This document shows positions 13,234-35,423 of a stretch of 64,000 nt of DNA, one piece after another. Below the pieces are notes generated by a model. That model worked only from the letters and a program-made list of their open reading frames with translations. It was not told where the DNA came from and did no database searches. Source of the DNA: Oscillospiraceae bacterium (GTDB lineage Bacteria > Bacillota > Clostridia > Oscillospirales > Ruminococcaceae); contig JAFLUH010000002.1 in NCBI GenBank assembly GCA_022508895.1, positions 1 to 64,000 of the forward strand, written 5' to 3'. The translations under genes were made by a program, and so were the position numbers. How positions within the stretch are numbered: the first letter of the stretch is position 1; every line of letters begins with the position of its first letter.

Positions 13234-13380
13234 GGAATGAACGGATTTTGAATTTACATAGTTGTTCGGAGGAACCTGCGGACAAAAAATGACCTTTGGG
13301 GTAAGACCGTATGTCTTTTGATCGCACCTGAATCCTACCGCTCGCAAGTATAATTTAATTTTATATATTAAGGAGCAGAC

Positions 13381-14688: not shown

Positions 14689-14694
14689 TCGCAC

Positions 14695-18406: not shown

Positions 18407-18431
18407 CTACGAAAGGAAAGGAACAGGAAAA

Positions 18432-18890
18432 ATGGAGTATACCTGCAGGGAAGACCTGAACCTCGAAGAAGGTGAAAAGCTGGTTTATGTGCCCATGGCG
18501 GCGGATATTATCCATCCGGGACACATAAATATCCTGAGAACGGCAAGAGAGCTGGGGAAGGTAATGGTCGGTCTGTTTACCGACGATGCCATCAGAAGCT
18601 ATAAGCCGGAGCCGTACATGGACTATGAGAAGAGAAAAATCGTTATTTCCGAAATAGTGGGCGTGGCATTCGTTGTGCCTCAGCTCACGAAAGATTATCA
18701 ACCTAATCTTAAAATGTTTCGTCCTGAGTTTTTTGTACATGGGACGGACTGGAGGAGCGGACCCCTTGCCGAAGTGCGCCGTCAGGCGATCGATTTGATG
18801 GCACAATGGGGCGGCGAAGTTATCGAGCCGGAGTACACACAGGGAGTATCGTCTACTGAACTGAAAAAGAAGGCAAAGGGTAAGGAATGA
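18432..18890 (+). CDS. Stand-alone HxGH cytidylyltransferase-like protein
   Basis: VYVPMAADIIHPGHINILRTARELGKVMVGLFTDDAI...FFVHGTDWRSGPLAEVR...GVSSTELKKK. Confidence 0.85.
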   Translation: MEYTCREDLNLEEGEKLVYVPMAADIIHPGHINILRTARELGKVMVGLFTDDAIRSYKPEPYMDYEKRKIVISEIVGVAFVVPQLTKDYQPNLKMFRPEFFVHGTDWRSGPLAEVRRQAIDLMAQWGGEVIEPEYTQGVSSTELKKKAKGKE

Positions 18891-20011
18891 AAGCAGAAGT
18901 ATTTGTGCGCAGCATCGGCTCCGATTTCTACGCAGGCGTACCTGATTCGCTGTTGAATCCGCTGTGCAGTTATCTGACGGAAATCTACGGTATAGGCGAA
19001 CACCATGTCATTGCGGCAAATGAAGGTAACGCAGTCGGACTTGCGGCAGGATATCATCTGGCGACCGGTAAAGTGCCGGTGGTCTATCTTCAGAACAGCG
19101 GACTGGGCAATATCGTCAACCCGGTGGTGTCGCTGCTCAACGGCAGGATATACGGCATTCCCTGCCTGTTTATCGTGGGCTGGCGGGGGGAACCGGGGGT
19201 CCACGACGAGCCGCAGCACCTGTTCCAAGGTGAGATAACCCTGTCCTTGCTGGAAAACATGGATATTCCCGCTTTTGTTATTGACAGGACCACCACGGAC
19301 GAGCAGGTCCAAGGCAAGCTGAACGAGTACCGTGAGCTGTTCGCTCAAGGCAGACAGGCGGCTTTTGTCATACGCAAGGGCGGTCTGGAATACGGCGGAA
19401 AAATCCTCTGCAATAACCGTTTCACCCTGCTTCGGGAGGAGGCGATCAGGCATATTGCCGCCTGCTCCGACGGCGGAGTGGTAGTCTCCACCACAGGCAA
19501 GGCAAGTCGGGAGCTGTTTGAGATAAGAGAAGCAAACGGGCAAAGCCATAAGTACGATTTCCTGACGGTAGGCTCCATGGGACACAGCAGCTCCATTGCG
19601 CTTGGTATCGCATTCAACAAGCCCGAAACAAAAGTCTGGTGCATCGACGGCGACGGAGCGGTGCTTATGCACATGGGAGCCATGGCTCTCATCGGCGCAA
19701 ACCGACCTGCCAACCTTATTCACATTGTACTCAACAATGCGTCTCATGAGTCCGTGGGCGGTATGCCTACCGTGGCAGGGCGATTGGACCTGCCTGCCAT
19801 TGCCGAAGCCTGCGGTTACCCCAATGCCGTGTCGGTGAGTACGGCTGAGGAGCTGGACGAAGCGCTGACTGCGGCAAAAGCGAGATGCGAGCTGACGTTC
19901 ATCGAGGTAAAATGTGCCCTTGGAGCACGGGAAAATCTGGGGCGCCCCACTGCTGCGCCTGTTGAAAATAAGCAGTCGTTTATGGAATTTTTGCAGGGTG
20001 GATCGATATAG
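18887..20011 (+). CDS. Phosphonopyruvate decarboxylase
   Basis: DFYAGVPDSLLNPLCSYL; AANEGNAVGLAAGYHLATGKVPVVYLQNSGLGNIVNPVVSLL; WRGEPGVHDEPQH; CIDGDGAVLMHMGAMALIG. Confidence 0.93.
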   Translation: MKAEVFVRSIGSDFYAGVPDSLLNPLCSYLTEIYGIGEHHVIAANEGNAVGLAAGYHLATGKVPVVYLQNSGLGNIVNPVVSLLNGRIYGIPCLFIVGWRGEPGVHDEPQHLFQGEITLSLLENMDIPAFVIDRTTTDEQVQGKLNEYRELFAQGRQAAFVIRKGGLEYGGKILCNNRFTLLREEAIRHIAACSDGGVVVSTTGKASRELFEIREANGQSHKYDFLTVGSMGHSSSIALGIAFNKPETKVWCIDGDGAVLMHMGAMALIGANRPANLIHIVLNNASHESVGGMPTVAGRLDLPAIAEACGYPNAVSVSTAEELDEALTAAKARCELTFIEVKCALGARENLGRPTAAPVENKQSFMEFLQGGSI

Positions 20012-20044
20012 GCATTTATATACCGAAAAAAGGAGCATACGAAC

Positions 20045-21559
20045 ATGAGCAACCAAAAGGACAATGTAATAATGCAGCAAACCGAGCTGCTGAAAAACAC
20101 GACCGAAATGACTGAATATCTCGATATCCTGAAAACGCTTCGGTCGGAATATCTTATCATACTCGGAGTGAAGGACTCGCCGGGCAAAAGAATGCTTCCG
20201 TCTATGCTGCAGCAAATTCGTGAGCTCGGTTTTTCAAAGTTCGATAACAGCTTATGGTATATGTATGCAGGGATCATATACAAGTCTGAGGTGCTGCTTG
20301 ATGAGTCAGGCATGGTACCTGAAATGCCTGTTTTTTATGAAGGTGATATCGGCGGGTATCATATTGAAATAGGCAGCGAATCCTACTTGAAAGGGAATCG
20401 CAGTATAATTTCGATAGACGGGAACGACTATTCCACGGACGGGATAGGCGTGAATATTGTTGTCTATGACGTTTATAACAACCAGCTTGTTGATTCCATC
20501 GCTTATGATTCTCACAGCAACCCCGCCGGTATATTTAAAAGAGGAAAACGTGCGGCAGAATGTAAAAAAGTCAACACTGAAAGTGCTCTGATACAGATAC
20601 TCGGCAAATTGGAAGTTCTTACCCAAAAAATCGATTTAGAAAATTATAAAGCGGAGTATGTTCTCTGGAACAATGCCCGCATGGACGGCGAAACCACTTT
20701 GGACGCCAAAAAGCGCTTTTTCAGGTCTCTGCGGACGGCGGATCGGAATATGTTCATCTGGCAGAAAGCGACGACAATAATACTGGCAGAGTTTGGAAGA
20801 ATATGCAGGGAAAATAATATTGATTACTGGCTGGACTGCGGAACGCTTTTGGGAGCTGTACGTCACGGCGGTCCTATCCCGTGGGACGACGATATGGACA
20901 TAGGTATGCTGAGAAAGGACCTGCCTAAACTGGAAAAGGCCATTGCCGAAGCGGATACATTTATACGGCTGAACAAATTCTTTTCGATAATAGTTCCTTA
21001 TTATGCAATGAACGTTTACAGACTTCAGTTTAAAGATCCTTCTGCTGCTATGTTTGTTGACATTTTTATATATGACTACTGCGAAAGTGACAGCCTCGAA
21101 AGATGGCGCAAGCTCATAACGGACAGGGAAAGCTATTTTTCACAGTTGACTGAATTTGCACCTGTCGCCAAAGCTGAGCCGGGAAGGAGCATTGCTGAAT
21201 ATTTTGCCGTTACCGATCCGGATCATATCAGTGAGATCGCTTCGATCTCAAATAAGATATTGGAATCGTCTGAAACAGTCGAAAACGGTGATTACATAAT
21301 ATGGGGATTTGATAACTGCCCTTATGTAGAAAATAAAAAGCCTATTTACAGAACATCTGACATCTTTCCGCTGAAGGAACTGGAATTTAACGGTAAGCCG
21401 TATAAGGTTCCGAATCAATATGAAAAATATTTATATAAGTTTTATGGAGATATATATACTTTGCCCGACGACCTGCTGACACATATGCATGTTGATGTAT
21501 CACAGGAAGTGATAGATAAGTGCACTGAGATAATAGAGCAATATTCCGATAAGCTTTGA
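20045..21559 (+). CDS. ILEI/FAM3-like domain + LicD family phospho(no)transferase, copy 1
   Basis: N-term GIGVNIVVYDVYNNQLVDSIAYDSHSNP; LicD core ENNIDYWLDCGTLLGAVRHGGPIPWDDDMDIGMLRKD. Confidence 0.88.
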   Translation: MSNQKDNVIMQQTELLKNTTEMTEYLDILKTLRSEYLIILGVKDSPGKRMLPSMLQQIRELGFSKFDNSLWYMYAGIIYKSEVLLDESGMVPEMPVFYEGDIGGYHIEIGSESYLKGNRSIISIDGNDYSTDGIGVNIVVYDVYNNQLVDSIAYDSHSNPAGIFKRGKRAAECKKVNTESALIQILGKLEVLTQKIDLENYKAEYVLWNNARMDGETTLDAKKRFFRSLRTADRNMFIWQKATTIILAEFGRICRENNIDYWLDCGTLLGAVRHGGPIPWDDDMDIGMLRKDLPKLEKAIAEADTFIRLNKFFSIIVPYYAMNVYRLQFKDPSAAMFVDIFIYDYCESDSLERWRKLITDRESYFSQLTEFAPVAKAEPGRSIAEYFAVTDPDHISEIASISNKILESSETVENGDYIIWGFDNCPYVENKKPIYRTSDIFPLKELEFNGKPYKVPNQYEKYLYKFYGDIYTLPDDLLTHMHVDVSQEVIDKCTEIIEQYSDKL

Positions 21560-21612
21560 TAAGCACTTGATATTTACGGCTGACCGCTACAAAAATAAAG
21601 GAGAATACGAAC

Positions 21613-23130
21613 ATGAGCAACCAAAAGAACAGCGCAATAATGCAGCAAACTGAACTGCTGAGAAACACTACCGAAATGATCGAATATCTCGATATTCTGA
21701 AAACACTCAGATCGGAATATCTTATCATACTCGGCGTGAAGGACACACCCGGCAGAAAAATGTTCCCGTCTATGATACGTCAAATTCGTGAGCTGGGATT
21801 TTCAAGGTTTGACAATCAGATGTGGTATATGTATGGCGGTATTATATACAAGTCTGAGGTCCTTCTTGATGAGTCAGGCATGGTGCCTGAAATGTCGGTT
21901 TGCCGCGAATGTGATATTGATGGGCACCGCATTGAAATAGTCAGCGAATCTTACATGAAAGGAAATCGCAGTATAATTTCAATAGACGGGAACAACTATT
22001 CCGCTGACGGTATAGGCGTGAATATCGTTGTTTATGACCTTGACAACAACGAGCTTGTCGATTCCGTTTCCTATGACACTCACCGCACGTTCTTCGGAAT
22101 GTTTACAAGAGGAGAGCGTACTGTGGAATGTAAAAAAATCGACACTGAAAATGCCTTGGTTCAGGTGCTTGGCAAATTGGACGCTCTGTCCCAAAAAATC
22201 GATCTGAATAATTACAAAACGAATTATGTCCTTTGGAATAATGCCCGCATTGATAGCGAGACCTCTTTGGACGCCAGAAAGCGCTTCTTCGGTTCTCTGC
22301 AGACAGAGGATCAAAAGATGGCTGTCTGGCAGAAATCAATGACGATACTGTTGGCTGAATTGGCAAGAATATGCGATGAAAATAATATTGATTACTGGCT
22401 GGATTGCGGAACACTTTTGGGAGCGGTTCGTCACAAAGGCTTTATCCCTTGGGACGACGATATGGATATAAGCATGATGAGAAAGGACCTGCCCAGACTG
22501 GAAAAAGCAATTGCCGAAGCGGATACATTTATACGGCTGAATAGCTTCTTTTCGATACGACCGGCTCCTCATGCAGCTACCCTGCATAAAGTTCAATTTA
22601 AAGATCCTCTTGCCGATCCGTTTGTTGATATTTTTTTCTTTGATTATTGTGAAAATGACAGCATCGAACGCTGGCATAAATACATGAAAGACAGGGAAAA
22701 TTATTCATCACAAGTGGCTAAATATGAGCCTATTCCCAATAATGACCCGGGAAAGAGCCGCTCTTTTTGGTACGCTGTTACCGATCAGGATCACATAAAT
22801 GAGCTTACTTCAATTTCAAATAAAATGTTGAGTTCCTCCGAAACGATAGAAAACGGAGAATATATAATTGTAGGATTTGACAAGTACCCTTATTCAAAGG
22901 ACAGAAAACGTATTTACAGGGTATCTGATGTCTTTCCGCTGAAGGAATTGGAATTCGGCGGAAGGCTGTATAAGGTCCCGAATAATTATGAAAGATATTT
23001 GGATGTATTTTTCGGAGAAGATATATATACTTTGCCCAACGATATGATAATTCATCAGCATTTTGAAATATCCCAGGAAATGGTGGATAAGTGTACTGAA
23101 CTAATAGAAAAATACTCCGACAAGCACTGA
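21613..23130 (+). CDS. ILEI/FAM3-like domain + LicD family phospho(no)transferase, copy 2
   Basis: N-term GIGVNIVVYDLDNNELVDSVSYDTHRT; ENNIDYWLDCGTLLGAVRHKGFIPWDDDMDISMMRKD; near-identical N-term to the 20045 gene. Confidence 0.88.
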   Translation: MSNQKNSAIMQQTELLRNTTEMIEYLDILKTLRSEYLIILGVKDTPGRKMFPSMIRQIRELGFSRFDNQMWYMYGGIIYKSEVLLDESGMVPEMSVCRECDIDGHRIEIVSESYMKGNRSIISIDGNNYSADGIGVNIVVYDLDNNELVDSVSYDTHRTFFGMFTRGERTVECKKIDTENALVQVLGKLDALSQKIDLNNYKTNYVLWNNARIDSETSLDARKRFFGSLQTEDQKMAVWQKSMTILLAELARICDENNIDYWLDCGTLLGAVRHKGFIPWDDDMDISMMRKDLPRLEKAIAEADTFIRLNSFFSIRPAPHAATLHKVQFKDPLADPFVDIFFFDYCENDSIERWHKYMKDRENYSSQVAKYEPIPNNDPGKSRSFWYAVTDQDHINELTSISNKMLSSSETIENGEYIIVGFDKYPYSKDRKRIYRVSDVFPLKELEFGGRLYKVPNNYERYLDVFFGEDIYTLPNDMIIHQHFEISQEMVDKCTELIEKYSDKH

Positions 23131-23227: not shown

Positions 23228-25546
23228 TTAAACCTTTACCGTCCTCGTAAACCTCTCAACCAGATCGTACCCGTCCCAAACCAGATCAAAATCCATCGTA
23301 TGTCCAATCGGCACAACACGGTCCACACCCTTGATGCCCGACCTGAGCAGCGGCTCCACTATCGCTTTATCCCCAAGCAAGCCTATAGTCTGACAATGAG
23401 TATCATTGCAGAAATCCCGTACCGCCATAATATCATCGCAGTCATATTCATAGAAATATCCGGAATTTCCCCTATGCTCCATAAGCTCATGGGGCAGCTC
23501 TGACACCTGAACTCTCACAAGCCGGTTGTCGCCCCCGTGTACGCATTTCATGCCGCATATCCCGCAGGCAGCCGCAGTATATTCCGTGGCAAGCTTATCC
23601 ACTCCCTGTATCGGCTGAAACAGGTATCTTTCCTTTACCGGTGCGGACAGACTATCCCAGAATATCTCCTTTGCTTCCTCTTTTGCGCCGCCTGTCCATA
23701 CCACCGCACGGGGACTTGAGCAGGCATTCTGATCGGATAAATAGGTATCGTTGTAAAAATCGGCTGCAATGCGTGCTGCCGCCTTGCCGTCATCGCTCAC
23801 TGCACGCATATACTCGTCGGAATCTATCACCGCCAGCGAGTAGCGGTCAGCAAATGTTATCTCTGTCGCTCTTGGCGGCAGCGGTGATTTGCGCAGCTCC
23901 GCAACGGTATCGTCGCCGCCCCAGATAACACGCACATCGCACATAGCCGACAGCATATCGTTGATCTCCCTATCACGCTCATACCGCAGCAATACGATAT
24001 ACGGCTTCATATCGGGGTGCTTTTCAAGTGCTGCACAGATAGCCCCGTTGATTATCCTCACCTGCGGGAACTCCCTTGAGGTTACTCTCACCGCATTTGC
24101 GTTGCCGCAGAGCAGCCCCGCAAAAAGCGAATACGCATAGTTCACCGGCACATTCGAGGGCGCAACATGAAAAGCCGCCCCACGTCCCACACGCAGCTCA
24201 CCGTCCGGCACGAACCTCTTCTTCATAGCCAAAACCGAGGATTTCCTCAGCCAGAAGCCCAGAGTTGCCACATCGGGAAACGCCTTTGCCTCAGCACTTT
24301 GCATAAGCTCCTTCGACAGATCGTTCAGAAAGTCGATTATATCGTCGCCGAAAGGCATTTTAGGCGCAGCCTTGGGAATATTCAGCAGCGTCTCCCTGTT
24401 TCCGATAAGATAGGTGATCTTATCCGATGCCGAAGCTTCGGTATCGCCTTTATTTACGGCACGCTCAGCCGCAAAGGTATCGCTGCAGCCCCGCAGCTCC
24501 GCATTTTTGAGCCGTCCCAGTATCCTGAAATACTTGCCCTTCCGTCCGCAGGGGCAGTCGTCCTCGCCCAGTATCACGCCCTCGTCCTCGGTGAGCAGAC
24601 AATGTCCGGGATAGGATTCGGGAATGGTCGATACTACCTGAAGTATACCCCTTTCCCCTATCTCGCACTCGGAAAAATCCTCCGGTCTTCTTGCGATAAC
24701 GTCGGAAAAAACGCTTGCGTGCAGATGCCCCTGCTCGCACTCCATATAAATGCAGCCGGTCTGCTCCACCATACCGTAGTAATCATGGATATGCTCCAGT
24801 CCGCACACGTCCTTCAATGCCCTGCGAAACTCCTCGGGACTTACCGCTTCGCCGGCAAGCTTTTTCCAGCCGCCGCCGTGTATCAGTATCCCGTGGGACA
24901 GGTCAAAGCTCATGCCCTCGCCCTTTAAGCGCAGCAGCTCCTTGTAAAAATACTGCCACACCATAAAGGTAAAGCCGAAAAGGAGTATCCTCTGTCCCTT
25001 ATTCTGCTCCAAAAAAGCCTGCAAGCCCGACCTGTCAAGCTGCATATCGTCGTTCAGCGCATATATCTTCTTTGCGCCGAAAATCGAAAAGCCCAGTATA
25101 CCTGCGCCTCTTGCCGAAAACATATTGCGGTCCTTCACCACCGAGGGGCAGTCCAGTATTATCATGGGCATTCTGGCTGAGCCTGTGAAGTCGTTCACTA
25201 TCTTGACCATAGCCTTTTGCTGGTTGGAGGAGGTGGTGCGGTCAAGGTAAATTTTTGACACCTTCTGCCCCGACGTCCCCGAGGAGGTCATGGTCTTCAC
25301 TATTCCGTCCTCGGAAACGCTTTTCAGCGACAGCTCCTTGAAAAGCCTGACAGGGAGAAAGGGGATATCCCTGTATGAGCTTACCTTTTGTCCGTCGTAT
25401 GAAACGGCGTTTAAAATGCGAGCATATTCGGGGCAATTTTTTCTGTGATGCTCGGTAAGCTCCGCCAGTCTTTCGGTGAGCAGCCTTTCCTTTTCCGCCT
25501 TTTCAAGGGAATAAGGCGAAATATTCAGCAATTCCTCAAAGCTCAC
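23228..25546 (-). CDS. LuxE-type acyl-protein synthetase fused to LuxC-type acyl reductase
   Basis: N-term IPFLPVRLFKELSLKS...TMTSSGTSGQKVSKIYLD (LuxE); C-term RGAAFHVAPSNVPVNYAYSLFAGLLCGNANAVRV...IADFYNDTYLSDQNACSSPRAVVWTG (LuxC). Confidence 0.88.
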   Translation of the reverse strand: MSFEELLNISPYSLEKAEKERLLTERLAELTEHHRKNCPEYARILNAVSYDGQKVSSYRDIPFLPVRLFKELSLKSVSEDGIVKTMTSSGTSGQKVSKIYLDRTTSSNQQKAMVKIVNDFTGSARMPMIILDCPSVVKDRNMFSARGAGILGFSIFGAKKIYALNDDMQLDRSGLQAFLEQNKGQRILLFGFTFMVWQYFYKELLRLKGEGMSFDLSHGILIHGGGWKKLAGEAVSPEEFRRALKDVCGLEHIHDYYGMVEQTGCIYMECEQGHLHASVFSDVIARRPEDFSECEIGERGILQVVSTIPESYPGHCLLTEDEGVILGEDDCPCGRKGKYFRILGRLKNAELRGCSDTFAAERAVNKGDTEASASDKITYLIGNRETLLNIPKAAPKMPFGDDIIDFLNDLSKELMQSAEAKAFPDVATLGFWLRKSSVLAMKKRFVPDGELRVGRGAAFHVAPSNVPVNYAYSLFAGLLCGNANAVRVTSREFPQVRIINGAICAALEKHPDMKPYIVLLRYERDREINDMLSAMCDVRVIWGGDDTVAELRKSPLPPRATEITFADRYSLAVIDSDEYMRAVSDDGKAAARIAADFYNDTYLSDQNACSSPRAVVWTGGAKEEAKEIFWDSLSAPVKERYLFQPIQGVDKLATEYTAAACGICGMKCVHGGDNRLVRVQVSELPHELMEHRGNSGYFYEYDCDDIMAVRDFCNDTHCQTIGLLGDKAIVEPLLRSGIKGVDRVVPIGHTMDFDLVWDGYDLVERFTRTVKV

Positions 25547-25548
25547 AT

Positions 25549-26241
25549 CTACACCCCCAATTTTTCCATGATAAGCTCCGCCACTTTTTCGCAGTGCTTA
25601 TTGATAAAGAAATGTCCGCCCGTATATTCCGCAAGCTCGCAGCAGCCTGTAAAATGCCTTTTCCACAGCTCCATTTCCTCTCTTGGGATATCCTCCGGCG
25701 AATAAAGAAGCAGTGCGGGAATATCCGTTGTAAAATCAATGCCTTCAAAATCATATCTGCCGATCATCAGGTAGTCCGCCTTAAAAAGCGGCAGATAAAT
25801 ACGCCAGAAGGTCTCGCTGTCCACAAGCTGCTCAGGTATCCCACCGAAGCGAATGGTTACTTCCCGTGTATATTCGTCCAATTTGTCGGGATCGCACCGT
25901 GTCAGATTGACCACCAGCTTAGGCTGATGCGAAGCCATAAAAATATATTTGGGAGCGGGCAGCTCTTTGGTTTTTGTCACATACCGCAAAACCTCCAGCG
26001 CCGCAACACACCCCATGCTGTACCCCAGCAGCGCATATTCTCCGCCGCTGTATTTTTCCCGCATCTGCGCATACAGATCCCGTGATAGCTCCTGATATGT
26101 CTCGCAGAACTTTTCCTTGCGCCTTGTGCCATGACCGGGGTACTCCAGCTTTACAAGCTCTGTTTTCCCTTCAAGGGCTTTCCCAAGCTCATTAAAAAAT
26201 GCAGCCGTTCCGCCTGCATAGGTAAAGCAAAAAAGCTGCAT
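25549..26241 (-). CDS. Type II thioesterase (GrsT/SrfAD-like alpha/beta hydrolase)
   Basis: LFCFTYAGGTAAFF; EYPGHGTRRKE; YALLGYSMGCVAALEV; GGHFFI. Confidence 0.87.
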   Translation of the reverse strand: MQLFCFTYAGGTAAFFNELGKALEGKTELVKLEYPGHGTRRKEKFCETYQELSRDLYAQMREKYSGGEYALLGYSMGCVAALEVLRYVTKTKELPAPKYIFMASHQPKLVVNLTRCDPDKLDEYTREVTIRFGGIPEQLVDSETFWRIYLPLFKADYLMIGRYDFEGIDFTTDIPALLLYSPEDIPREEMELWKRHFTGCCELAEYTGGHFFINKHCEKVAELIMEKLGV

Positions 26242-26252
26242 AACTGCCTCCG

Positions 26253-27668
26253 TTACCGATAGTATTTTTCCAGTTCCTTGTATAACGTTTTTCCCGAATC
26301 GTTTTTAGGTATCTCGCTTACCACCACCGTCTTGAACGCCGCCGGATTAAGCCCCGTTTTAGCCGCAGCAAAGCTCTTTACCTCTTCGGCGATTTCCCCG
26401 TCCGTAACAAAAATATACATATGGTCGTCCACCCCTGCGCTGGCGCAGTCTATGTTGTCAAACCGTGCTTTTATCAGTCGGTCTATCTCGTCAAGATTCA
26501 CCCGATTGCCGTATATCTTCAGAAATCTCTTTTTCCTGCCCACGATATAGTAATATCCGTCCTCGTCGAACTGCGCCATATCGCCGGTCTGCAGCACGCC
26601 GCCCCGTTCGTCTCCCTTTATCAGGTCCTCGCCCCGTTCCGCATAGCCCGGGGTGACGTTATCTCCCTCGTAAACCAGCTCTCCGGTCACATGAGGTTCC
26701 GTAATATCCTGCCCGTCAGCGTCTGTCAGGCGGAATTTCCCGCCCGGGATAGCAATGCCCATTGACCCGCACTTTTCGATGGCTTTTTCCGCCGGAAGAT
26801 ACCCCATTCTGGCGGTAGCCTCGCACTGCCCGTACATGACGATGAACTTGGTCCCTTTCTCACAGGCATACTCGGCGAACTTCCTGTGCAGCTCAGGTGT
26901 CAGCTTTCCCCCTGCCTGAGTGGAATACCTGAGAGAGGGCAGCTCCATGCGGAAAAATCTCAGCCGCTCCAGCATTTCATAGGTGTAGGGGACCCCGCCG
27001 AAGGAGGTCGCCTCCTGCTCCTTGAAAAAGCTCCAGAACTCCTTCTGCATAAGCCCCTTATCGGTTAGAAGCAGCGTTGCCCCCACCAGAAGATGACTGT
27101 TTATGACGGACAGTCCGTAGGTGTAATTCATGGGCAGCGTGGAAATGGGGCGTTCCGTCTCGTTCAGCTCCAAATATTCCGCAATCGACCTTGCGTTTGA
27201 AAGCACGTTTTTATAGCTTTGACGGACGAACTTGGGACTGCCGGTGGAGCCGGAGGTGGTGAGCAGCAGCGCCAAATCGTCATGCAGGGGATACTCCCTG
27301 TTATATGCGGTTTTGAGCAGGGTGTAGTCGTAACATCCGTAAACAGGCTGCCACGGGAACATATCCGCCTGCTCAGCGGGCAGCCAGACAAATTTCGGCG
27401 CATAAGTCTCCAGCAGATTTGTCAGCAGCTCTTTTTCCAGATTTGCGCTGAGCAGCATGGGGACTATGCCGCTGTTCATAAATGAAACATACCCCGCAAC
27501 CGAGCCGATGGTGTTTTTGCAGAGTGAGGCAACAAGACATCTGCCGCCCGCTGCCTCTGCAAGCTCCCTACCCGTCCGATAAAGCTCACCGTAGGTCGCC
27601 GAAGTCCCAAGCTCGTCTGTGATTGCGGTATTATTCTCATATCTGAGCAGATCCCACATTTTATTCAT
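26253..27668 (-). CDS. AMP-binding acyl ligase / adenylation enzyme
   Basis: LALLLTTSGSTGSPKFVRQSYKNVL; MYGQCEATARMGYLP; GVLQTGDMAQFDEDGYYYIVGRKKRFLKIYGNRVNLDEID; NDSGKTLYKEL. Confidence 0.9.
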   Translation of the reverse strand: MNKMWDLLRYENNTAITDELGTSATYGELYRTGRELAEAAGGRCLVASLCKNTIGSVAGYVSFMNSGIVPMLLSANLEKELLTNLLETYAPKFVWLPAEQADMFPWQPVYGCYDYTLLKTAYNREYPLHDDLALLLTTSGSTGSPKFVRQSYKNVLSNARSIAEYLELNETERPISTLPMNYTYGLSVINSHLLVGATLLLTDKGLMQKEFWSFFKEQEATSFGGVPYTYEMLERLRFFRMELPSLRYSTQAGGKLTPELHRKFAEYACEKGTKFIVMYGQCEATARMGYLPAEKAIEKCGSMGIAIPGGKFRLTDADGQDITEPHVTGELVYEGDNVTPGYAERGEDLIKGDERGGVLQTGDMAQFDEDGYYYIVGRKKRFLKIYGNRVNLDEIDRLIKARFDNIDCASAGVDDHMYIFVTDGEIAEEVKSFAAAKTGLNPAAFKTVVVSEIPKNDSGKTLYKELEKYYR

Positions 27669-28726
27669 TCAAAATCTTCCTGTACTATGAGAGTGTCCTT
27701 TTCCACCTTATGGGCAACGGTTCTGCCGATAAATTTAGGCATATCCTCGGGAGGGAAGCCCGTACCGGGGCGCTTTGCGTCGATATCCCCCTCGGCGATG
27801 ACCTCGCCCGCCTCCATATCTCTTGTATATATAAGGCTTCTGCGCATATTTTTCCGCTGTTCCAGCTCCGATTCAAATACCACTCTCTCCTTGGAGCCCC
27901 GTGCCGTCCACACGTTATGGCATTGCCGTACCATAAGCTTCATCTCGTCAGGCTCCGTCGCCATCTGGTTGTCCAGTCCTATCTTGGTTTTGTCAGGGGT
28001 GAGGTGCTTTTCGATAAGGCAGGCGCCCAAGGCAATTGCCGCCGCCGCCATTTCAGTTCCTGCGGAGTGATCGGAAAATCCCACGGGATAATTCGGGAAC
28101 TTTTCCTGCAAGCCCACGATGTTCAGCAGATTTATCTCGGATATTTCGGGGGGATAGACGGAAATGCAGTGCAAAAGGCAGATATCGTGATTACCCGCTT
28201 TTTCGATGGTGTCCACCGCACGGCAAACCTCCTCCATGGTGCCCATGCCCGTGGAAAGAATGACAGGCGCACCCTTTCTTGCGATATAATCGAGAAAAGG
28301 ATAATTGTTCAGCTCCATTGAGGATATCTTGATAAAGGGAGCGTCAGCCTCGTCTGCAAGGAAGTCAACCTCCTCACGGGAATAGGGAGTGGAGGAAAAA
28401 TCAACGCCCGCATTTTTGCAGTATTCCGCAAGCTCAAGGAGCTGCTCCGACGACAGCGACCATCTTTTGATAAACCGTGCCGCAATGGGATTTGCCCTGC
28501 TGTAAGTGCGGGAATACAGCGATTCGTCAGACCAGGACTGAAACTTCACGCAGTTGCAGCCGCAGTCCGCCGCTGCGTCTATCATCTGCTTGGCGGTCTC
28601 CATGTTCCCGTAGTGGCTGGAATTTACCTCTGCGATCACATAGGGCTTCTGCTCCCTGCCTATCTTAACTGAATTTCTTAAAGTAAACGTGGGCATATTT
28701 AACTCCTTACTTTCCTTATTGATCAA
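27665..28726 (-). CDS. NeuB-family sialic acid synthase-like protein (PEP-aldose condensing) with SAF domain
   Basis: YVIAEVNSSHYGNMETAKQMIDAAADCGCNCVKFQSW; VDFSSTPYS; VILSTGMGTMEEV; LLHCISVYP; VGFSDHSAGTEMAAAAIALGACLIEKHLT; C-term SAF. Confidence 0.92.
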   Translation of the reverse strand: MINKESKELNMPTFTLRNSVKIGREQKPYVIAEVNSSHYGNMETAKQMIDAAADCGCNCVKFQSWSDESLYSRTYSRANPIAARFIKRWSLSSEQLLELAEYCKNAGVDFSSTPYSREEVDFLADEADAPFIKISSMELNNYPFLDYIARKGAPVILSTGMGTMEEVCRAVDTIEKAGNHDICLLHCISVYPPEISEINLLNIVGLQEKFPNYPVGFSDHSAGTEMAAAAIALGACLIEKHLTPDKTKIGLDNQMATEPDEMKLMVRQCHNVWTARGSKERVVFESELEQRKNMRRSLIYTRDMEAGEVIAEGDIDAKRPGTGFPPEDMPKFIGRTVAHKVEKDTLIVQEDFE

Positions 28727-30503
28727 TAGGTTCTATCACCATTTCGCTGAGGAACAGCTCTCTGTCCAGAAACGGCGCCTGATCCTCAAGAGGACGCTGT
28801 ACAAAGCGTTTTTCCGACGTTCTTGCAATGGAGCAGGAAATGATATCCTGATCTTCAACGCCGTCTATCTCGCACAGCACCGCCCCGTTTTCGGCAAAGA
28901 CCTCGCCGAGCCTCTGCTCAAGCCCGCTGTCCTCCGCTATATGAACGTACTTCAGCCCGAAGCATTCCGCAGCCTTGGCAAAGTCCACCGTTCCCACGCC
29001 GTTTTCGGGGTCGGTGCCTGTGGTCCTTGTGCGGAAAAGCTCCTTCTGCCGCTTTCTGATGACCGAGTACACATTGTTGCTTATCACCAGTATCTTTATT
29101 GGCAGCTTGTTAAAATCCACCGTCGCCAGCTCCTGCAAATTCATCATTGCCGAGCCGTCCCCGATGACCGCAACAACGGGCTTGCCGCTTGAATAATACG
29201 CTCCTATCGCCGCAGGAAGCGCATAGCCCATCGCTCCCTGCGAGGTCGGGTGGATACAGCGGCGTTCGCCTGAGAACACCACGTTGGAGGGAATTATCAG
29301 CTCCTCCAGCCCTGCGTCGCTCAGCAGGACCGCATCATCGGGCAGGGAAGCGGAGAGAGCCTCCGCAAGGCGGTAAAGGTCAACCTTGTCTTTAACACGG
29401 TGAATATCCTCACACAGCGGGAAAGCTTCCTTCCAGTGCCGGCACTTCGCCGCCCACCCGCTGCGTCCGCCTGCGATGTCGCAGTTATTTATCTTATCCA
29501 GAAACGCCTTTACGTCCGAGACGATGAGCCTGTCTATCTTAACGGTATTCTTGGAGTGCTCGGTCTTGTCAACGTCCACCACAATCACCTTGGCTTCACG
29601 GGCAAATTTCGCATACTCGGAACCGGTGGTCATAGGCGAAAGCCGATTTCCCAGCACAAGCACAAGATCGGCGTTTTGCAGAGCAAAGCAGCCCGACCGT
29701 GAGCACGCCATCATTCCCGCACTGCCTATACAAAGCTCTCTGTCATAGCCGTAGGTATCGGGAGCAGACGCGCTGTAAACCACGGGAATGCCGTTTTTTT
29801 CGGCAAAGACCCTCAGCTCATCACAGGCATTTGCCCACCGTATCCCGCTGCCTATAAGCAGAACAGGTCTTTGCGAAGCGGCAAGCGTCTCGACTGTGTA
29901 GGCAATTTCCTCCTCGGTCGCCGCAGGGAGCGCCTCGTCGGGCACAAAATGCTCCTGCTCCTCAGGCTCGATACGCATATTCTGCACGTCAAGGGGAACG
30001 TCTATCCAGACAGGACCCTTTCTCCCATGCTGCGCAAGGTACAGCGCCTTTTCCATCTCATACACGATACGGCTCGGGTCGTCAAGCATAACGGCGTATT
30101 TGGTGATATGCTCTGCAAGGGAAACGATGTCCGCCTCCTGCTGTCCCCACGTTCTGAGCGGTATACCCGAATGCCTTGAGGTCTCTCTCAGGATATTCTG
30201 ACCCGAGACCACCACCATGGGAACTCCGTCCTGCCATGCGCACAGAACGCTTGTGAGAGCATTTGTGCCTGCGCAGCCCGTGGACACCAGACAGGCGCCC
30301 AGCTTTTCGTTATAGGAGGAATACGCCGAAGCGGCAAAAGCGCACGCCTGCTCATGGTGCATAGGCACAGGGACGATGCCCTCCGCCTTTGCGGCGGCGT
30401 CGGAGAGGTACAATACGCCTCTGCCGGTGATCATAAAGAGGTGCTTTACGCCTTCCTCGCTGAGTTTTTCCATTATGTAGTCGGCTGCTCTGACCATTTG
30501 CAT
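28716..30503 (-). CDS. Thiamine-diphosphate-dependent acetolactate synthase-like enzyme
   Basis: PMHHEQACAFAASAYSSY, STGCAGTNALTSVLCAWQDGVPMVVVSGQ, VIGDGSAMMNLQELATVDFNKLPIKILVISNN. Confidence 0.9.
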   Translation of the reverse strand: MQMVRAADYIMEKLSEEGVKHLFMITGRGVLYLSDAAAKAEGIVPVPMHHEQACAFAASAYSSYNEKLGACLVSTGCAGTNALTSVLCAWQDGVPMVVVSGQNILRETSRHSGIPLRTWGQQEADIVSLAEHITKYAVMLDDPSRIVYEMEKALYLAQHGRKGPVWIDVPLDVQNMRIEPEEQEHFVPDEALPAATEEEIAYTVETLAASQRPVLLIGSGIRWANACDELRVFAEKNGIPVVYSASAPDTYGYDRELCIGSAGMMACSRSGCFALQNADLVLVLGNRLSPMTTGSEYAKFAREAKVIVVDVDKTEHSKNTVKIDRLIVSDVKAFLDKINNCDIAGGRSGWAAKCRHWKEAFPLCEDIHRVKDKVDLYRLAEALSASLPDDAVLLSDAGLEELIIPSNVVFSGERRCIHPTSQGAMGYALPAAIGAYYSSGKPVVAVIGDGSAMMNLQELATVDFNKLPIKILVISNNVYSVIRKRQKELFRTRTTGTDPENGVGTVDFAKAAECFGLKYVHIAEDSGLEQRLGEVFAENGAVLCEIDGVEDQDIISCSIARTSEKRFVQRPLEDQAPFLDRELFLSEMVIEPIDQ

Positions 30504-30523
30504 TCTCTCACTTTTCAGGTAGG

Positions 30524-31492
30524 TTATTGCTTCATAAATTCCGCTATTTTCCCGGCAATTTTTTCCGCTGTCAGCCCGTATTTCTCCAGCATCGCTTCGT
30601 AAGAATCCGCAACGGGATAGCTGCTTGGCAAGCCGATCAGCAGCTGCGGAGGTTTGTGGGCGCAGGGTGATATTTCCTCTGCGACTGCCGAGCCAAGTCC
30701 GCCTGTTACGCTGTGCTCCTCGGCGGTGACAATAAGCTTGCAGTCAAGGCATTGCCTTATCATTTCGCCGTCCAGCGGTCTTATTGTGTGAATATCAATG
30801 ACGGAAGCGCTTATCCCCTGTTCCGACAGGGCTTCAGCCGCCTTCAGGGATTCCGCCACCATCGTTCCCGTAGCGATAATTGCCACGTCGATTCCGTCCC
30901 GCAGCTTTATTCCCTTGCCTATACGATAGTCGTAGTCCTCCTTGTATACGACGGGGGAGCCCATGGTGCCGGTCAGTCTGATATAAACCGGCTTATCCGA
31001 TTCGGCAGCGGCAAGGACCGCCTTTACCGTTTCGGTGGAATCGGCGGGGGACAGTATCGTTATGTTTGGTATGGAGCGTATTATCGCCATATCCTCCGTT
31101 CCGAGATGGGTGGCGCCTAAAAATCCGGCGCTGAGTCCTGCGGTAAGTCCCATCAGCTTTACAGGAAGCTGCATATATCCCATATTGACTCTGATCTGAT
31201 CGAGAGGTCTTGCCGATGCAAAGGAGGCGAAGGTGGAGGCAAAGACCTTATAGCCCTCGCTTGCCATTCCTGCTGCAACGGCTATCATATTCTGCTCCGA
31301 GATACCCACGTTGACGTAATTTTCGGGATAGCTTCTCCGAAACCTGTCAAGACCTGCATGAACGCCCAGATCGGCTTCCATCGCTATAATGCTCTTGTCG
31401 TTTTCCGCCAGATAACCCATCGCCATGGCGTGAGCGCCGCAGGAACCCAGCCTTGACCACATTCTGATATTAGCAGGTGTAAAATAACTCAT
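30524..31492 (-). CDS. Transketolase, C-terminal subunit
   Basis: DLGVHAGLDRFRRSYPENYVNVGISEQNMIAVAAGMASEG; ATHLGTEDMAIIRSIPNITILSPAD; C-term VTAEEHSVTGGLGSAVAE. Confidence 0.93.
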   Translation of the reverse strand: MSYFTPANIRMWSRLGSCGAHAMAMGYLAENDKSIIAMEADLGVHAGLDRFRRSYPENYVNVGISEQNMIAVAAGMASEGYKVFASTFASFASARPLDQIRVNMGYMQLPVKLMGLTAGLSAGFLGATHLGTEDMAIIRSIPNITILSPADSTETVKAVLAAAESDKPVYIRLTGTMGSPVVYKEDYDYRIGKGIKLRDGIDVAIIATGTMVAESLKAAEALSEQGISASVIDIHTIRPLDGEMIRQCLDCKLIVTAEEHSVTGGLGSAVAEEISPCAHKPPQLLIGLPSSYPVADSYEAMLEKYGLTAEKIAGKIAEFMKQ

Positions 31493-32316
31493 TATGCGCC
31501 TTCCATTTCCGCAATAGCCGTATTGAACTGACTTTCGTTCAGCCTTCCGCTGTGCCAGCTTGGGCTGTTTTCCATGAAGGATACGCCCTTGCCCTTTACC
31601 GTATCCGCAACGATAGCCACAGGCTTTTCGCTTCTGTATTCCAATGCGGTCAGCAGGGCCTCCATGTCGTGCCCGTCCACCGTTTTCGTATCCGGACCGA
31701 AGGCGGATATCTTTTCCGCAAGGTCCCCCATGGAAAGTATCTCCTCGGTAAATCCGTCATGCTGCAGGCGGTTGCGGTCCACGATGACGGTCAGATTGTC
31801 CAGCTTAAAGTGCGAGGCAGACGCCAGCGCCTCCCACACGGAGCCCTCGTTGCATTCTCCGTCACCTAACAGGACGAACACTCTTGCAGGATTACCCTTC
31901 TTTTTCAGTGCCATCGCAACGCCTACCGCCAGACATATCCCCTGACCGAGGCTGCCGGTGGAAAACTCTACGCCTATATCCCTGTCACGGGTGGAATGTG
32001 CATACAGTCTTGTACCGCTCTGCTTGAAGGTCATCAGCTCCTCGTCGGTGATCGCGCCTATCTGCTTCAGCGCCGCATACTGCGCCAGCGAGCAGTGCCC
32101 CTTGCTGAGTATGAACCTGTCTCGGTCGTCACTTTGGAGCTTCTCCTTACTGATATTCATAACGCCGACATACAGCGCCGCCATTATATCCATCGCCGAA
32201 AGCGTCCCGCCGATATGGGTGCCTGTTTTTCCGCCGGCATACATTGCACGGATAGCGTCTATCCGCATTTCCTTGGCTGCATTTCTGCATTTTTCCGCAA
32301 CAGAAGCATCGACCAT
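31492..32316 (-). CDS. Transketolase, N-terminal subunit
   Basis: GGTLSAMDIMAALY; FILSKGHCSLAQYAAL; STGSLGQGICLAVGVAMALK; LLGDGECNEGSVWEAL. Confidence 0.93.
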   Translation of the reverse strand: MVDASVAEKCRNAAKEMRIDAIRAMYAGGKTGTHIGGTLSAMDIMAALYVGVMNISKEKLQSDDRDRFILSKGHCSLAQYAALKQIGAITDEELMTFKQSGTRLYAHSTRDRDIGVEFSTGSLGQGICLAVGVAMALKKKGNPARVFVLLGDGECNEGSVWEALASASHFKLDNLTVIVDRNRLQHDGFTEEILSMGDLAEKISAFGPDTKTVDGHDMEALLTALEYRSEKPVAIVADTVKGKGVSFMENSPSWHSGRLNESQFNTAIAEMEGA

Positions 32317-33059
32317 CAGTACAAACCTCCATCTACTCTTAAAACCTGACCCGTGACAAAGCTGGACATATCCGACGCTAAGAACAGAATTGCATTTGCT
32401 ATCTCTCTCGGCTCTGCGTCCCGTTTCATGATGCAGTGGTTCAGTGTATTCTCATGAATTTGTTCGACCATATTTTCGTCCACCATTTTTGTCTTGGTGA
32501 TACCGGGCGCAACGGCGTTTACCCTTATGCCGTATTCTCCCAGCTCGATGGCGGATTCCTTTGTCGAACCTATCATTGCCGCTTTGCTTGAAGCATATTC
32601 AAAATTGCCGGGCGACCCGAGAATGGCTGAAACGGAGGAAACGTTCACGATGCTTCCGCTCTTGTTCCTTGACATCATTCTGGCGATATACTGGGTAAGC
32701 ACAGTCTGACCAAAGAAATTCACTTCAAAGACCCGTCTTATCTTGTCGATGGGCGTCATCTGGTACGGCGTGTATTCCAGCACCATGCCTGCGTTGTTGA
32801 CAAGGATATCAACGGTCTTTGTATTCTTGGTAAGGGCTCTGACAGCCTCCTTTATGCTTGCTTCGCTGCCGATGTCGCATTCAATGACGTGAACGGCAGC
32901 TCCCTGAGCCGTCAATTGCGATATATGCTCCGTGAGATCGGGACGTTCCTCCCTTACAAAGGCATAGACCTCCGCACGGTTCTCGCAAAAAAGGTCTAAG
33001 CAGGCACGCCCGATACCTCCGGCAGCCCCCGTGATCACAGCAATTTTACCTGACAGCAT
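32316..33059 (-). CDS. SDR-family oxidoreductase (FabG-like)
   Basis: AVITGAAGGIGRACLDLF; LVNNAGMVLEY; NVSSVSAILGSPGNFEYASSKAAMIG; VNAVAPGITKTKM; SSFVTGQVLRVDGGLY. Confidence 0.93.
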   Translation of the reverse strand: MLSGKIAVITGAAGGIGRACLDLFCENRAEVYAFVREERPDLTEHISQLTAQGAAVHVIECDIGSEASIKEAVRALTKNTKTVDILVNNAGMVLEYTPYQMTPIDKIRRVFEVNFFGQTVLTQYIARMMSRNKSGSIVNVSSVSAILGSPGNFEYASSKAAMIGSTKESAIELGEYGIRVNAVAPGITKTKMVDENMVEQIHENTLNHCIMKRDAEPREIANAILFLASDMSSFVTGQVLRVDGGLY

Positions 33060-33097
33060 AGTTTTTCTCCCTGTTCTGAAATAATAACGTGCGCCGA

Positions 33098-33127
33098 TGC
33101 GCTTTGCGGCGAAAAGCCGCAGGCGCA
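33098..33127. other. GC-rich intercistronic hairpin between ACP and SDR genes
   Basis: TGCGCTTTGCGGC-gaaaa-GCCGCAGGCGCA. Confidence 0.5.
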
Positions 33128-33143
33128 GCAGCGCAGGAACCTG

Positions 33144-33380
33144 TCACACGGTCACCTCATACTTGGCGAGAATTTCCTTGCCCTTTTCGTATGAGCTGAA
33201 ATCAATGATGTCGTCTGTCTCCATCATGATATCAAAGCCGTCCTCGAGAGCTGCGACAAGGTTCATGTGACCTACGCTGTCCCATTCGGGGATAGCTTGG
33301 TATTCCAGCCCTGCAAGGGCGCCTTCTTCAACTCCGAACGCTTCCTTGAAAGCGTTATTGTAGATTTCCAGATTAGACAT
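33144..33380 (-). CDS. Acyl carrier protein
   Basis: MSNLEIYNNAFKEAFGVEEGAL...IPEWDSVGHMNLVAALEDGFDIMMETDDIIDFSSYEKGKEIL; DSVGHM phosphopantetheine site. Start set at the ATG at 33380 with SD ACGGAGGAAA. Confidence 0.92.
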   Translation of the reverse strand: MSNLEIYNNAFKEAFGVEEGALAGLEYQAIPEWDSVGHMNLVAALEDGFDIMMETDDIIDFSSYEKGKEILAKYEVTV

Positions 33381-33444
33381 GATATTTCCTCCGTAATGAT
33401 TTATTATCACACTTTAAGTGCAATTTACCGTGGCTGTAAGTCCT

Positions 33445-34464
33445 CTAATTCGGCCGATCCTGATCTGCGTCCGCTTTGAAGAAAAGCGCCCCCTCAACGG
33501 ACGCATGAGTATATATCTCTATGTTTCTCCGCTCAAAGGGGTGAAAATAATTGGGAATGATATTGCCGTCATTCTCAGTCCTCAGCACAAAGCCTGCGTC
33601 CAGGATATAAGCCTCCTCAAAGCCCTCGCAGTAAAAGTCGATATATTCGTACTCCTTTTCCCGCACCAGACCGCAGAAAAACAGATACAGCTTCCCGAAG
33701 CGCTTTTGCTCGCCCAGAAAGTCCACGATACGAAGCGCCTTTCTGCCGAAGACTTCCTCCTCTCTTACCACAAAGAAAGCCTCTATGCGCTCTCCCGAAA
33801 ATATTCCGTAGGTGTCATAGTGATATATCGGGTGCCTGAAAAACCGCTTGCCTATATAATATGCGTCCTTGCAGGGAACGATCTCCTTACACTTTGCAAA
33901 ATCAAACCCTTCCTGCAGCTCCTCTATGGAATTTATCTTCCGCACGTCCACATTTTCAACCGGCTTGCCGCACTGCTCCGGAAAATGCACGATCTCGGCG
34001 ATCCTAAACTCCTTGCAGTTCCCCAAAAAATAGTACTGCTTCAGCTTGCCCATCACACGGTGGTGCATTCTTTTGATCAGTGGCACTGCCGTATTAGGAT
34101 TCAGTCCCACGCCCAGGCTGTGTTTGCACTCGCACAGTCGGTTCATTCTGAGCGTAAGCTCCATGCCGAGAAACGGCATATTCCCGTCCTTCACCTTCCA
34201 CAGGCTGCCCCATATATCCGTGCCGGTCTTGCCCTCAGAGGCTTTCAGAAAGCCCTGTATACCCTCCAGACTCCCCGTTTCCCTCTTTATCGCAAGGGCA
34301 AAGTTTACCGTCCCGTCCTCCTCCAAAAACTCATACTCGAAAAACTCCCTGTTTTCAGCAAGTATATGTCCCTTTTTCCAGTATGTATCTATAAACTCCA
34401 TGATAACGGGAATATCGTCTTTTCGTGCCAGCCGTATCTCGTACACTTCATCGTAGCGGCTCAT
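33445..34464 (-). CDS. GNAT-like acyltransferase
   Basis: YEIRLARKDDIPVIMEFIDTYWKKGHILA N-terminal GNAT motif; position in the ACP/AMP-ligase operon. Confidence 0.6.
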   Translation of the reverse strand: MSRYDEVYEIRLARKDDIPVIMEFIDTYWKKGHILAENREFFEYEFLEEDGTVNFALAIKRETGSLEGIQGFLKASEGKTGTDIWGSLWKVKDGNMPFLGMELTLRMNRLCECKHSLGVGLNPNTAVPLIKRMHHRVMGKLKQYYFLGNCKEFRIAEIVHFPEQCGKPVENVDVRKINSIEELQEGFDFAKCKEIVPCKDAYYIGKRFFRHPIYHYDTYGIFSGERIEAFFVVREEEVFGRKALRIVDFLGEQKRFGKLYLFFCGLVREKEYEYIDFYCEGFEEAYILDAGFVLRTENDGNIIPNYFHPFERRNIEIYTHASVEGALFFKADADQDRPN

Positions 34465-34469
34465 TGCTG

Positions 34470-35423
34470 TTATTTCTCCTTATAGCTTTCACTTACGGGC
34501 GGGAAATCGTTGCAGTCCAGCCTCGGCAGCTCAAGGGCGTTATCCTTTCCTATCTCTGCGGCTCTCACTGCGGTGGTAAGCCCCAGACAGGCGCCCTCGC
34601 TCCTTACATATTCCAGCACGTCCCGATCATAATTGCCGTAAGGATAATTCATGACCCAGCGTTTCCTGTCTATGAACTCGTCCAGAGCCTCCAGCCCCTT
34701 GGAAATATCCCGCTTCATCTGCTCCGGTGGCAGGTTTCCCAGCCAGTAATGATCGTACCCGTGAACGCCGATAAACATACCGTGCCGCTTCATGGTGCGT
34801 ATCTGGTCCTCCGTCATATAAAGCTCGTAGGCGAGCTGCTCCTCCGCAACTCCCACATACTTTTCAAAAAGCTCGCTTGAAATGGTATTTCTCAGCCTTT
34901 CGGGAAGCGCCGTCTGGAGCATTCTCTTTACAAAGACGGTTTCCTTTGCGTCAAAGCGGTTGGCGACCGCATACTCGCTGAACAGTTCCTCCGTGGCAGG
35001 GTAGTCATACTCGGCTCCCCGATAACGGTCCATCTGCTTCTTCACGTCCTCCGTCAGCTCGTAAATATCTGCGCTTGCCAGAATGTAGTGTATTTTGTTT
35101 ACGTCCAGCAGCTTATGCTCGGCAAAGGTTTTGCCCGGAATAAAAAAAGAGCCCTGAACATGAAATTCTTCCAGAAGGGGGAGAGCAAAGGCGTAGTTAT
35201 CCGCATAGCCGTCGTCGAAGGTCAGCAGCAGCGCATTTTCGGGAAGCTCAGACCTTCCCTCGGCAGCGTCCGTGACCTGTTCCATGGTCACCGCATTGAA
35301 ATTGCTTTTCATGAATTCGAGCTGGCGGCGGAACAGAGCGGTGTCCAGCCCCTTGATCTGCGGGTATCTGCTGTGCTTCAGATCTCTGGTATAGTGATAC
35401 ATGCAAATATATAATCTGCTCAT
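34470..35423 (-). CDS. Polysaccharide deacetylase (CE4/NodB-like)
   Basis: ALLLTFDDGYADNYAFALPLLEEF; IGVHGYDHYWLG; VMNYPYGNYDRDVLEYV. Confidence 0.9.
   Translation of the reverse strand: MSRLYICMYHYTRDLKHSRYPQIKGLDTALFRRQLEFMKSNFNAVTMEQVTDAAEGRSELPENALLLTFDDGYADNYAFALPLLEEFHVQGSFFIPGKTFAEHKLLDVNKIHYILASADIYELTEDVKKQMDRYRGAEYDYPATEELFSEYAVANRFDAKETVFVKRMLQTALPERLRNTISSELFEKYVGVAEEQLAYELYMTEDQIRTMKRHGMFIGVHGYDHYWLGNLPPEQMKRDISKGLEALDEFIDRKRWVMNYPYGNYDRDVLEYVRSEGACLGLTTAVRAAEIGKDNALELPRLDCNDFPPVSESYKEK

Follow-up and report, generated by a model that had tools for sequence, protein, structure and literature searches.

An operon of eleven genes in the genome of an Oscillospiraceae bacterium pairs a NeuB-like phosphoenolpyruvate (PEP) condensing enzyme with a sugar-branching type of thiamine diphosphate (ThDP) enzyme, a pairing that is little described and is present in at least five phyla. 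The operon occupies 23228-35423 on the minus strand of the window, the whole stretch of 64,000 nucleotides that was analysed (positions 1 to 64,000 of contig JAFLUH010000002.1, assembly GCA_022508895.1). We give an even chance to the reading that its product is a short polyhydroxylated acyl group, which the operon's enzymes attach to an amino sugar within a surface glycan. A more specific proposal, which we hold at a little short of even, is that NeuBs of this kind are a new branch that condenses PEP with LuxC-derived aldehydes into 4-hydroxy-2-oxo acid donors for YerE-like enzymes, replacing the pyruvate aldolase of a sister group; here, together with transketolase extension, an undescribed acyl group or higher sugar would result.

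The sequence-only reading of this DNA had named eleven genes, and each was found in its place as an intact open reading frame (ORF) in a single tight run on the ORF list of the window. From the first gene to the last, the operon reads:

34470-35423, minus strand: DEAC, polysaccharide deacetylase of CE4 type with PgaB/PdaB-like segments (PF01522, 1.9e-23)
33445-34464, minus strand: GNAT-like putative N-acyltransferase, with a low-confidence structure model of tandem-GNAT/NMT-Eis-like fold
33144-33410, minus strand: acyl carrier protein (ACP) with a W-D-S-V-G motif; homologues have 78-80 aa
32316-33059, minus strand: short-chain dehydrogenase/reductase (SDR), FabG-like, part of the SDR-TKN-TKC module (PF13561, 1.1e-60)
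31492-32316, minus strand: TKN, N half of a split transketolase, ThDP-binding (PF00456, 1.6e-36)
30524-31492, minus strand: TKC, C half of the split transketolase (PF02779, 1.4e-35; PF02780, 2.5e-27)
28716-30503, minus strand: ALS, YerE/JanthE-like ThDP carboligase with JanthE as best PDB match (TPP enzyme N/M/C, about 1e-31)
27665-28726, minus strand: NeuB-like PEP condensing enzyme of a distinct subfamily (PF03102, 1.1e-76; SAF, 1.7e-8)
26253-27668, minus strand: AMP-forming acid-ACP (or CoA) ligase, 471 aa (PF00501, 1.6e-41)
25549-26241, minus strand: TEII, type II (editing) thioesterase (PF00975, 3.4e-29)
23228-25546, minus strand: LuxE-LuxC fusion, 772 aa (PF04443, 2.9e-56; PF05893, 3.5e-27)

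The intergenic gaps range from -11 to +84 bp, so a single transcription unit is likely. Homologues of the ACP and of the NeuB begin at what is Met11 of the respective ORF, which is probably the true start in both cases (giving 33144-33380 for the ACP and a start at 28696 for the NeuB). Nine of the eleven proteins matched Pfam families with strong scores, and the Pfam search gave no match for the ACP (33144) and the GNAT-like protein (33445); functions beyond the family level are predictions throughout. The catalytic motifs of the families are retained and largely invariant across homologues. The alignments have LuxE Cys354 in 84 of 84 sequences, the LuxC cysteine (NACSS) in 74 of 74, the D-S of the ACP in all 61, the GxSxG serine and the histidine of TEII in all 21, and an invariant Glu in the GI[SA]EQN motif of TKC. 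The ligase keeps the A3 motif and the C-terminal Gly-Lys, the SDR its Tyr and Lys, and ALS has the ThDP GDG motif and Glu51.

By its sequence, ALS is a YerE/JanthE-like enzyme rather than an acetolactate synthase proper: its best match in the PDB is JanthE (8rph, 344.7 bits), with AHAS at 213. According to a review, YerE-like enzymes branch surface sugars, and ErwE favours 4-hydroxy-2-oxo acids as donors. The company that ALS keeps was studied in a set of loci obtained by scanning an alignment of the window LuxE and seven relatives' LuxE against 85,488 species genomes. The scan yielded at least 579 relatives, of which 80 loci were kept; genes were labelled by BLAST thresholds against the window proteins, with flanks limited to 10 kb, so that modules lying together farther out would be missed. 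ALS homologues of at least 40% identity occur in 15 of the 80 loci, 12 of which also hold a window-type NeuB (odds ratio 32, descriptive p 7e-7), and NeuB is the next gene after ALS in 11 of these 12. The other three (L068, L083 and L122) carry an HMGL-family aldolase and no window-type NeuB. The L122 aldolase has a DmpG domain and adjoins an acetaldehyde dehydrogenase, the textbook pair that makes 4-hydroxy-2-oxovalerate. An ALS search added two further aldolase-type loci, L172 and L173 (the ALS proteins of L068 and L173 are identical), and a locus of the same genus, L034, falls in the aldolase-type ALS group and has no established aldolase partner.

The NeuB and aldolase partner states occupy separate parts of the ALS tree. 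In a quick ThDP tree of 51 rows, 18 cassette enzymes group together (SH-aLRT 100), and within them lie 12 NeuB-partnered rows including the window (100), five aldolase-type rows (100) and L122, which stands apart; L115, whose ALS is cut by the locus start, was too incomplete for this tree. JanthE falls on the cassette side, apart from AHAS (branch 99). Because both are long branches, the placing of JanthE rests mainly on the PDB search. In JanthE the change Lys567 to Ser opens the active site; among 15 cassette enzymes, 13 have Ser at the equivalent position and the other two have Gly or Ala, in a weakly aligned region to which we attach little weight.

The NeuB partners form a branch of their own. 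The 16 cassette NeuBs (the window and 15 others, from Bacillota, Pseudomonadota, Spirochaetota, Melainabacteria and Thermodesulfobacteriota) are a clade with 100/100 support, apart from the canonical NeuBs found in those loci and in the bacterium's own genome; the tree has long branches for L116 and for the Neisseria sequence. The window NeuB shares 51-62% identity with cassette NeuBs as against 35-38% with canonical ones, and scores under the cut-offs of TIGR03569 and TIGR03586. The PEP- and metal-site residues known from Neisseria NeuB all have their equivalents here, and several sugar-pocket residues are retained too, including the equivalents of Tyr186, Asp247 and Arg314. The stretch that bears Asn74 has 50 residues in all 16 cassette NeuBs, 59 in six canonical NeuBs and 55 in Neisseria; the Asn74 position is a gap in the cassette NeuBs, and the substrate loop is 9 residues shorter. 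With the PEP and metal residues kept and the loop altered, the cassette NeuB appears to be a working enzyme that condenses PEP and whose substrate pocket has changed. A plasmid collection searched for NeuB and ALS gave no match at the limits used.

A NeuB-type condensation joins PEP to R-CHO and gives R-CHOH-CH2-CO-COOH, a 4-hydroxy-2-oxo acid. This is the product class of the sister-group aldolase, and the simplest reading is therefore that NeuB has replaced the aldolase as donor supplier. The window NeuB is thus probably not a nonulosonate synthase and would supply the ThDP donor instead. In the route that we propose, LuxE-LuxC would activate one carboxylate of a small hydroxy acid, transfer it to the enzyme cysteine and reduce it with NAD(P)H to an aldehyde, as its families predict, and we infer that it is the natural aldehyde source in all cassette loci. 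The NeuB-like enzyme would join this aldehyde to PEP, and the YerE/JanthE-like enzyme would decarboxylate the 4-hydroxy-2-oxo acid so formed and couple the acyl anion to a carbonyl acceptor, which may be a small oxo acid, an aldehyde or a keto sugar. The aldehyde from LuxE-LuxC may be lengthened by a C2 unit through the split transketolase, with the SDR reducing the ketone that results. LuxE-LuxC is also found in aldolase-type and transketolase-type loci, so NeuB is not the sole user of its aldehyde. The finished acid could then be loaded on the ACP by the ligase, with TEII clearing wrong loads, a role that fits the ligase-ACP-thioesterase set, by analogy with Vibrio cholerae. Finally, the deacetylase may free a sugar amine and the GNAT-like protein move the acyl group from the ACP onto it; the acceptor is possibly a nonulosonate made by genes on another contig of the same genome (C141).

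Several points weigh against this reading. NeuB can act without ALS, since six cassette NeuB loci (L044, L055, L067, L071, L097 and L107) have no ALS in reach, most of them with an SDR nearby. An ACP and a short ORF separate ALS from NeuB in L045, and a frame break in L065 leaves NeuB as two overlapping ORFs. The order of the genes does not fix the order of the steps, and the GNAT model is of low confidence, with three known relatives. As the scan was seeded by LuxE, the frequencies hold for LuxE loci only, and the p-values count related species as independent and are hence descriptive. The proteins SfmA and SfmB of Shewanella oneidensis, compared below, are likened to the window proteins by description only. 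A close RmlB is present in 5 of 69 cassette loci, which weakens the version with a keto-sugar acceptor.

The same scarcity of RmlB bears on a different product, a branched-chain sugar, which we regard as unlikely. Here the ThDP enzyme (and perhaps the transketolase) would add the NeuB-derived acyl unit to a keto sugar nucleotide such as dTDP-4-keto-6-deoxyglucose, as YerE does, and ACP, ligase and LuxE-LuxC would only supply the aldehyde. The YerE/JanthE-like nature of ALS agrees with this, as do its distant relatives (33-40% identity), whose neighbours are RmlB-like and DegT genes and, in many cases, an HMGL aldolase, and the RmlA and RmlB genes of the window (11360-13233, plus strand). The latter lie on the strand opposite to the operon, and such keto-sugar genes are not general among close ALS relatives. 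The strong linkage to ligase, ACP, thioesterase and N-acyltransferases speaks for acyl loading instead, and the Shewanella flagellin group is small and nitrogen-free.

We consider it improbable that NeuB makes an atypical nonulosonic acid which the ACP and ThDP genes decorate, the product that had been suggested from the sequence alone. The SAF domain, the retained PEP and metal residues and the several sugar-pocket residues that are kept are in keeping with such a product. Against it stand the separate clade with its low identity to canonical NeuBs, the shortened loop with its missing Asn74 position and, taken together with the clade, the coupling to a YerE-like enzyme, so that this NeuB is better read as something other than the source of an atypical nonulosonate. 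The confirmed absence of NeuA and NeuC from the window counts against it too, as does another NeuB of the same genome, which lies on C141 in a set of neuC-neuA-neuB-neuD-like genes.

The deacetylase and the GNAT-like protein suggest a link to canonical nonulosonates. Their homologues occur in the same three of the 80 loci (L045, L076 and L110; 30-34% identity for GNAT), and each of these loci also has a canonical NeuB, which is present in 5 of the 80 loci in all (descriptive p 1.9e-4); L045 and L110 also show NeuA- or NeuC-like genes, assigned by eye. This company suggests that the N-acetyl group of a nonulosonate may be exchanged for the special acyl group. The AlphaFold2 model of the GNAT-like protein has a pLDDT of 65, and its PDB matches are NMT and Eis, N-acyltransferases of the GNAT superfamily (E about 1e-7 to 1e-8, TM about 0.4-0.5). 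The NCBIfam match of DEAC is PgaB-like with a score under the cut-off, and inspection of DEAC by eye gave no evident signal peptide. Flagellins of the same genome lie on contigs C93, C95 and C46, and no flagellin or Maf gene adjoins the operon, unlike in a flagellin glycosylation island. A simple route in which Maf transfers the product to flagellin was dropped, no protein of this genome having matched Maf (PF01973). Similar proteins of about 489 aa without a Pfam match are encoded in the window at 5600-7069 (plus strand) and beside the nonulosonate genes of C141 (L130:2479-3945, minus strand).

ACP, AMP-ligase and LuxE-LuxC, the preferred reading's loading and aldehyde-forming enzymes, are an already-known and common surface-glycan cassette. 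Ligase, LuxE and LuxC, mostly with ACP, are found in almost all 80 LuxE-selected loci, from several phyla; among the loci of 12 kb or more, the thresholds used detected the ligase in 68 of 69, LuxC in 61 and ACP in 60. A TEII homologue is present in 20 of the 80. In the window ACP, AMP-ligase, LuxE and LuxC are encoded together with their catalytic motifs, as in a tetronate-type acyl cassette. The commonest extension module of this core is the SDR with the split transketolase: TKN and TKC each occur in 34 of the 80 loci, and outside the window TKC follows TKN in 36 of 38 cases and an SDR directly precedes TKN in 26 of 38.

The two ThDP systems that had been noted side by side are mostly alternatives elsewhere, which does not support the first interpretation, and among the loci examined, within their 10 kb flanks, the NeuB-ALS pair occurs with a transketolase in the window only. 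A transketolase accompanies NeuB in L097 and ALS in L034, L172 and L173. A strict mutual exclusion of transketolase and ALS (0 of 33) was considered and is weakened by these last three loci and by a TKC at the edge of L083. L034, L172 and L173 are composite, each having transketolase, ALS and two LuxE-LuxC copies or parts.

Other features of the cassette loci were seen in passing. L090:1-14000 (Roseburia faecis) holds a flagellin-like ORF, a Maf/MptE-like protein, a distant ALS homologue and LuxE-LuxC with ligase in one run, and looks like a Gram-positive flagellin glycosylation island with the core cassette. A conserved family of about 240 aa, starting MKI-DA-WEK-NLG, occurs in 14 of the 80 loci (L034, L049, L068, L098 and others); the L098 member has a weak Acetyltransf_1 match, and the family is perhaps an N-acyltransferase in place of the window GNAT. 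Small FabA/FabZ-like proteins directly precede ALS in the NeuB-type loci L054, L065, L084, L098, L101, L105, L108, L121 and L123; one lies a few genes past ALS in L110, and the window operon has none.

In this exact form the block is not conserved across the genus, and its modules reshuffle. Among 71 same-genus genomes, a window-type NeuB was found in two (the window's own and G036) and ALS above threshold in three (the window's own, G002 and G029, 35%). The exact block thus does break apart in relatives, the outcome named beforehand as counting against it, but this does not apply to the modules, found again in at least five phyla. Two further explanations were weighed. A secreted specialised metabolite with no glycan link is very doubtful: TEII, ACP and ligase do resemble natural-product loading modules, but no ketosynthase, non-ribosomal peptide synthetase or polyketide synthase was found in the window, glycan genes flank the operon on both sides, and relatives lie in glycan or flagellin loci. 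The reshuffling would suit mobile modules that came together by chance or have decayed and that share no product, a reading we find scarcely credible given the intact ORFs, the kept motifs, the tight gaps and the recurrence elsewhere of the SDR-TKN-TKC order and the ALS-NeuB neighbourhood.

Converging on the operon is a second cluster:

7085-23130, plus strand: glycan cluster with GT61, formyltransferase, DegT, RmlA, RmlB, PEP mutase, phosphonopyruvate decarboxylase and two LicD

This cluster is a possible source of the acceptor sugar, its functional link to the operon being conjectural. The PEP mutase is fused to a cytidylyltransferase (13381), and the phosphonopyruvate decarboxylase (18887) scores 472 bits; a PsrA-like iron alcohol dehydrogenase (17303) and a CTP-transferase-like gene (18432) are also present. 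The cluster suggests a decoration of hydroxyethylphosphonate type. The formyltransferase is of the dTDP-4-amino-4,6-dideoxyglucose type. At 14695-17306 (plus strand) an HMGL aldolase-like gene (14695) is followed by an AHAS-like ThDP gene (15708); the two were considered as a second YerE-type module and rejected, the ThDP enzyme grouping with acetolactate synthase, outside the YerE-like clade.

These results give a testable rule for widespread surface-glycan loci, in which a fixed core of acid-to-aldehyde and acyl-loading enzymes carries swappable carbon-carbon modules. Such loci are found in gut Clostridia, spirochaetes, Selenomonads and others, and the class is mostly unexplained. If the proposal for NeuB is true, a NeuB subfamily that scores best against sialic acid synthase models would be reassigned to a different reaction, YerE-like biocatalysts would gain a PEP-driven donor source, and there would be a lead on the chemistry of the unsolved Shewanella flagellin group.

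The first interpretation of this DNA is supported in part. The genes agree with carrier-protein chemistry, with reduction of an acid to an aldehyde, with carbon-carbon bond formation by ThDP enzymes and with condensation of PEP. In the open-access literature, which covers few subscription journals, we found neither the full gene set nor a NeuB-ThDP pairing beyond sfm. The core by itself is known from V. cholerae, Aeromonas and Enterobacteriaceae, in loci whose product has been identified wholly or in part.

The O1 locus of V. cholerae has an iron alcohol dehydrogenase (RfbM) and a different acyltransferase; no iron alcohol dehydrogenase is among the eleven operon genes, the PsrA-like one at 17303 belonging to the plus-strand cluster. 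The O1 locus is not known to have NeuB, ALS-like, transketolase, GNAT or deacetylase genes. The flagellin glycan of Treponema denticola reportedly has 2-methoxy-4,5,6-trihydroxyhexanoyl as its acyl group, and the published 450.2 Da glycan fits 274 + C7H12O5. Like the operon, the O1 tetronate locus has reported ACP, ligase and LuxE-type genes (PMC3441752, PMC12208996). Its genes VC0248-VC0252 (rfbKLMNO/wbeKLMNO), likened to ours by description, include an ACP, a 471-aa AMP-ligase and a LuxE-type protein for an N-acyl (2,4-dihydroxybutanoyl) amino sugar (PMC3441752, PMC12208996, PMC4772473). RfbL/WbeL activates the 2,4-dihydroxybutanoate with which perosamine is N-acylated, and normal O1 antigen depends on this ligase.

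Core genes are also carried by the group II islands of Aeromonas (orf1-3, luxE, luxC; PMC7874193) and the flagellin islands of Enterobacteriaceae (PMC4875605), which share ACP, a 3-oxoacyl-ACP reductase, AMP-ligase, LuxE and LuxC with the operon. These islands serve flagellin glycosylation, whereas the window block has no flagellin nearby, and no transketolase or acetolactate-type gene is mentioned in the paper on Aeromonas (PMC7874193).

Compared with the NeuB, LegI and PseI synthases, the window NeuB has the same fold, SAF domain and PEP and metal residues, but differs in its separate clade, its shorter loop and the lack of an adjacent CMP-transferase or epimerase. Window ALS is akin to YerE, ErwE and JanthE, JanthE being its closest solved structure; their relatives adjoin 4-hydroxy-2-oxo-acid aldolases, in contrast to the NeuB partner in the window, and JanthE has CDG where the window enzyme has GDG.

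A parallel to the pair itself is sfmABCDE of S. oneidensis, which encodes NeuB, a ThDP enzyme, an SDR, a methyltransferase and an ATP-grasp ligase (PMC3765264). As in our operon, NeuB, ThDP enzyme and SDR stand in one operon, needed there for glycan modification: deletion of any of sfmA-D brings the flagellin mass to about that of the unmodified protein (PMC3765264). Unlike our operon, it has a methyltransferase and an ATP-grasp ligase and no ACP, AMP-ligase or LuxE-LuxC; SfmA has 290 aa. The Shewanella group, of 236/264 Da in strain MR-1, sits on a mono-N-acetyl nonulosonate and is nitrogen-free, with the formula C9H16O7 before methylation. In a small enumeration this formula was reached from a tetrose and PEP by decarboxylative coupling to pyruvate and one reduction, and by five other routes tried; it is consistent with NeuB and ThDP steps, not uniquely, and is not proof of them. 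Set beside these systems, the operon puts known pieces together.

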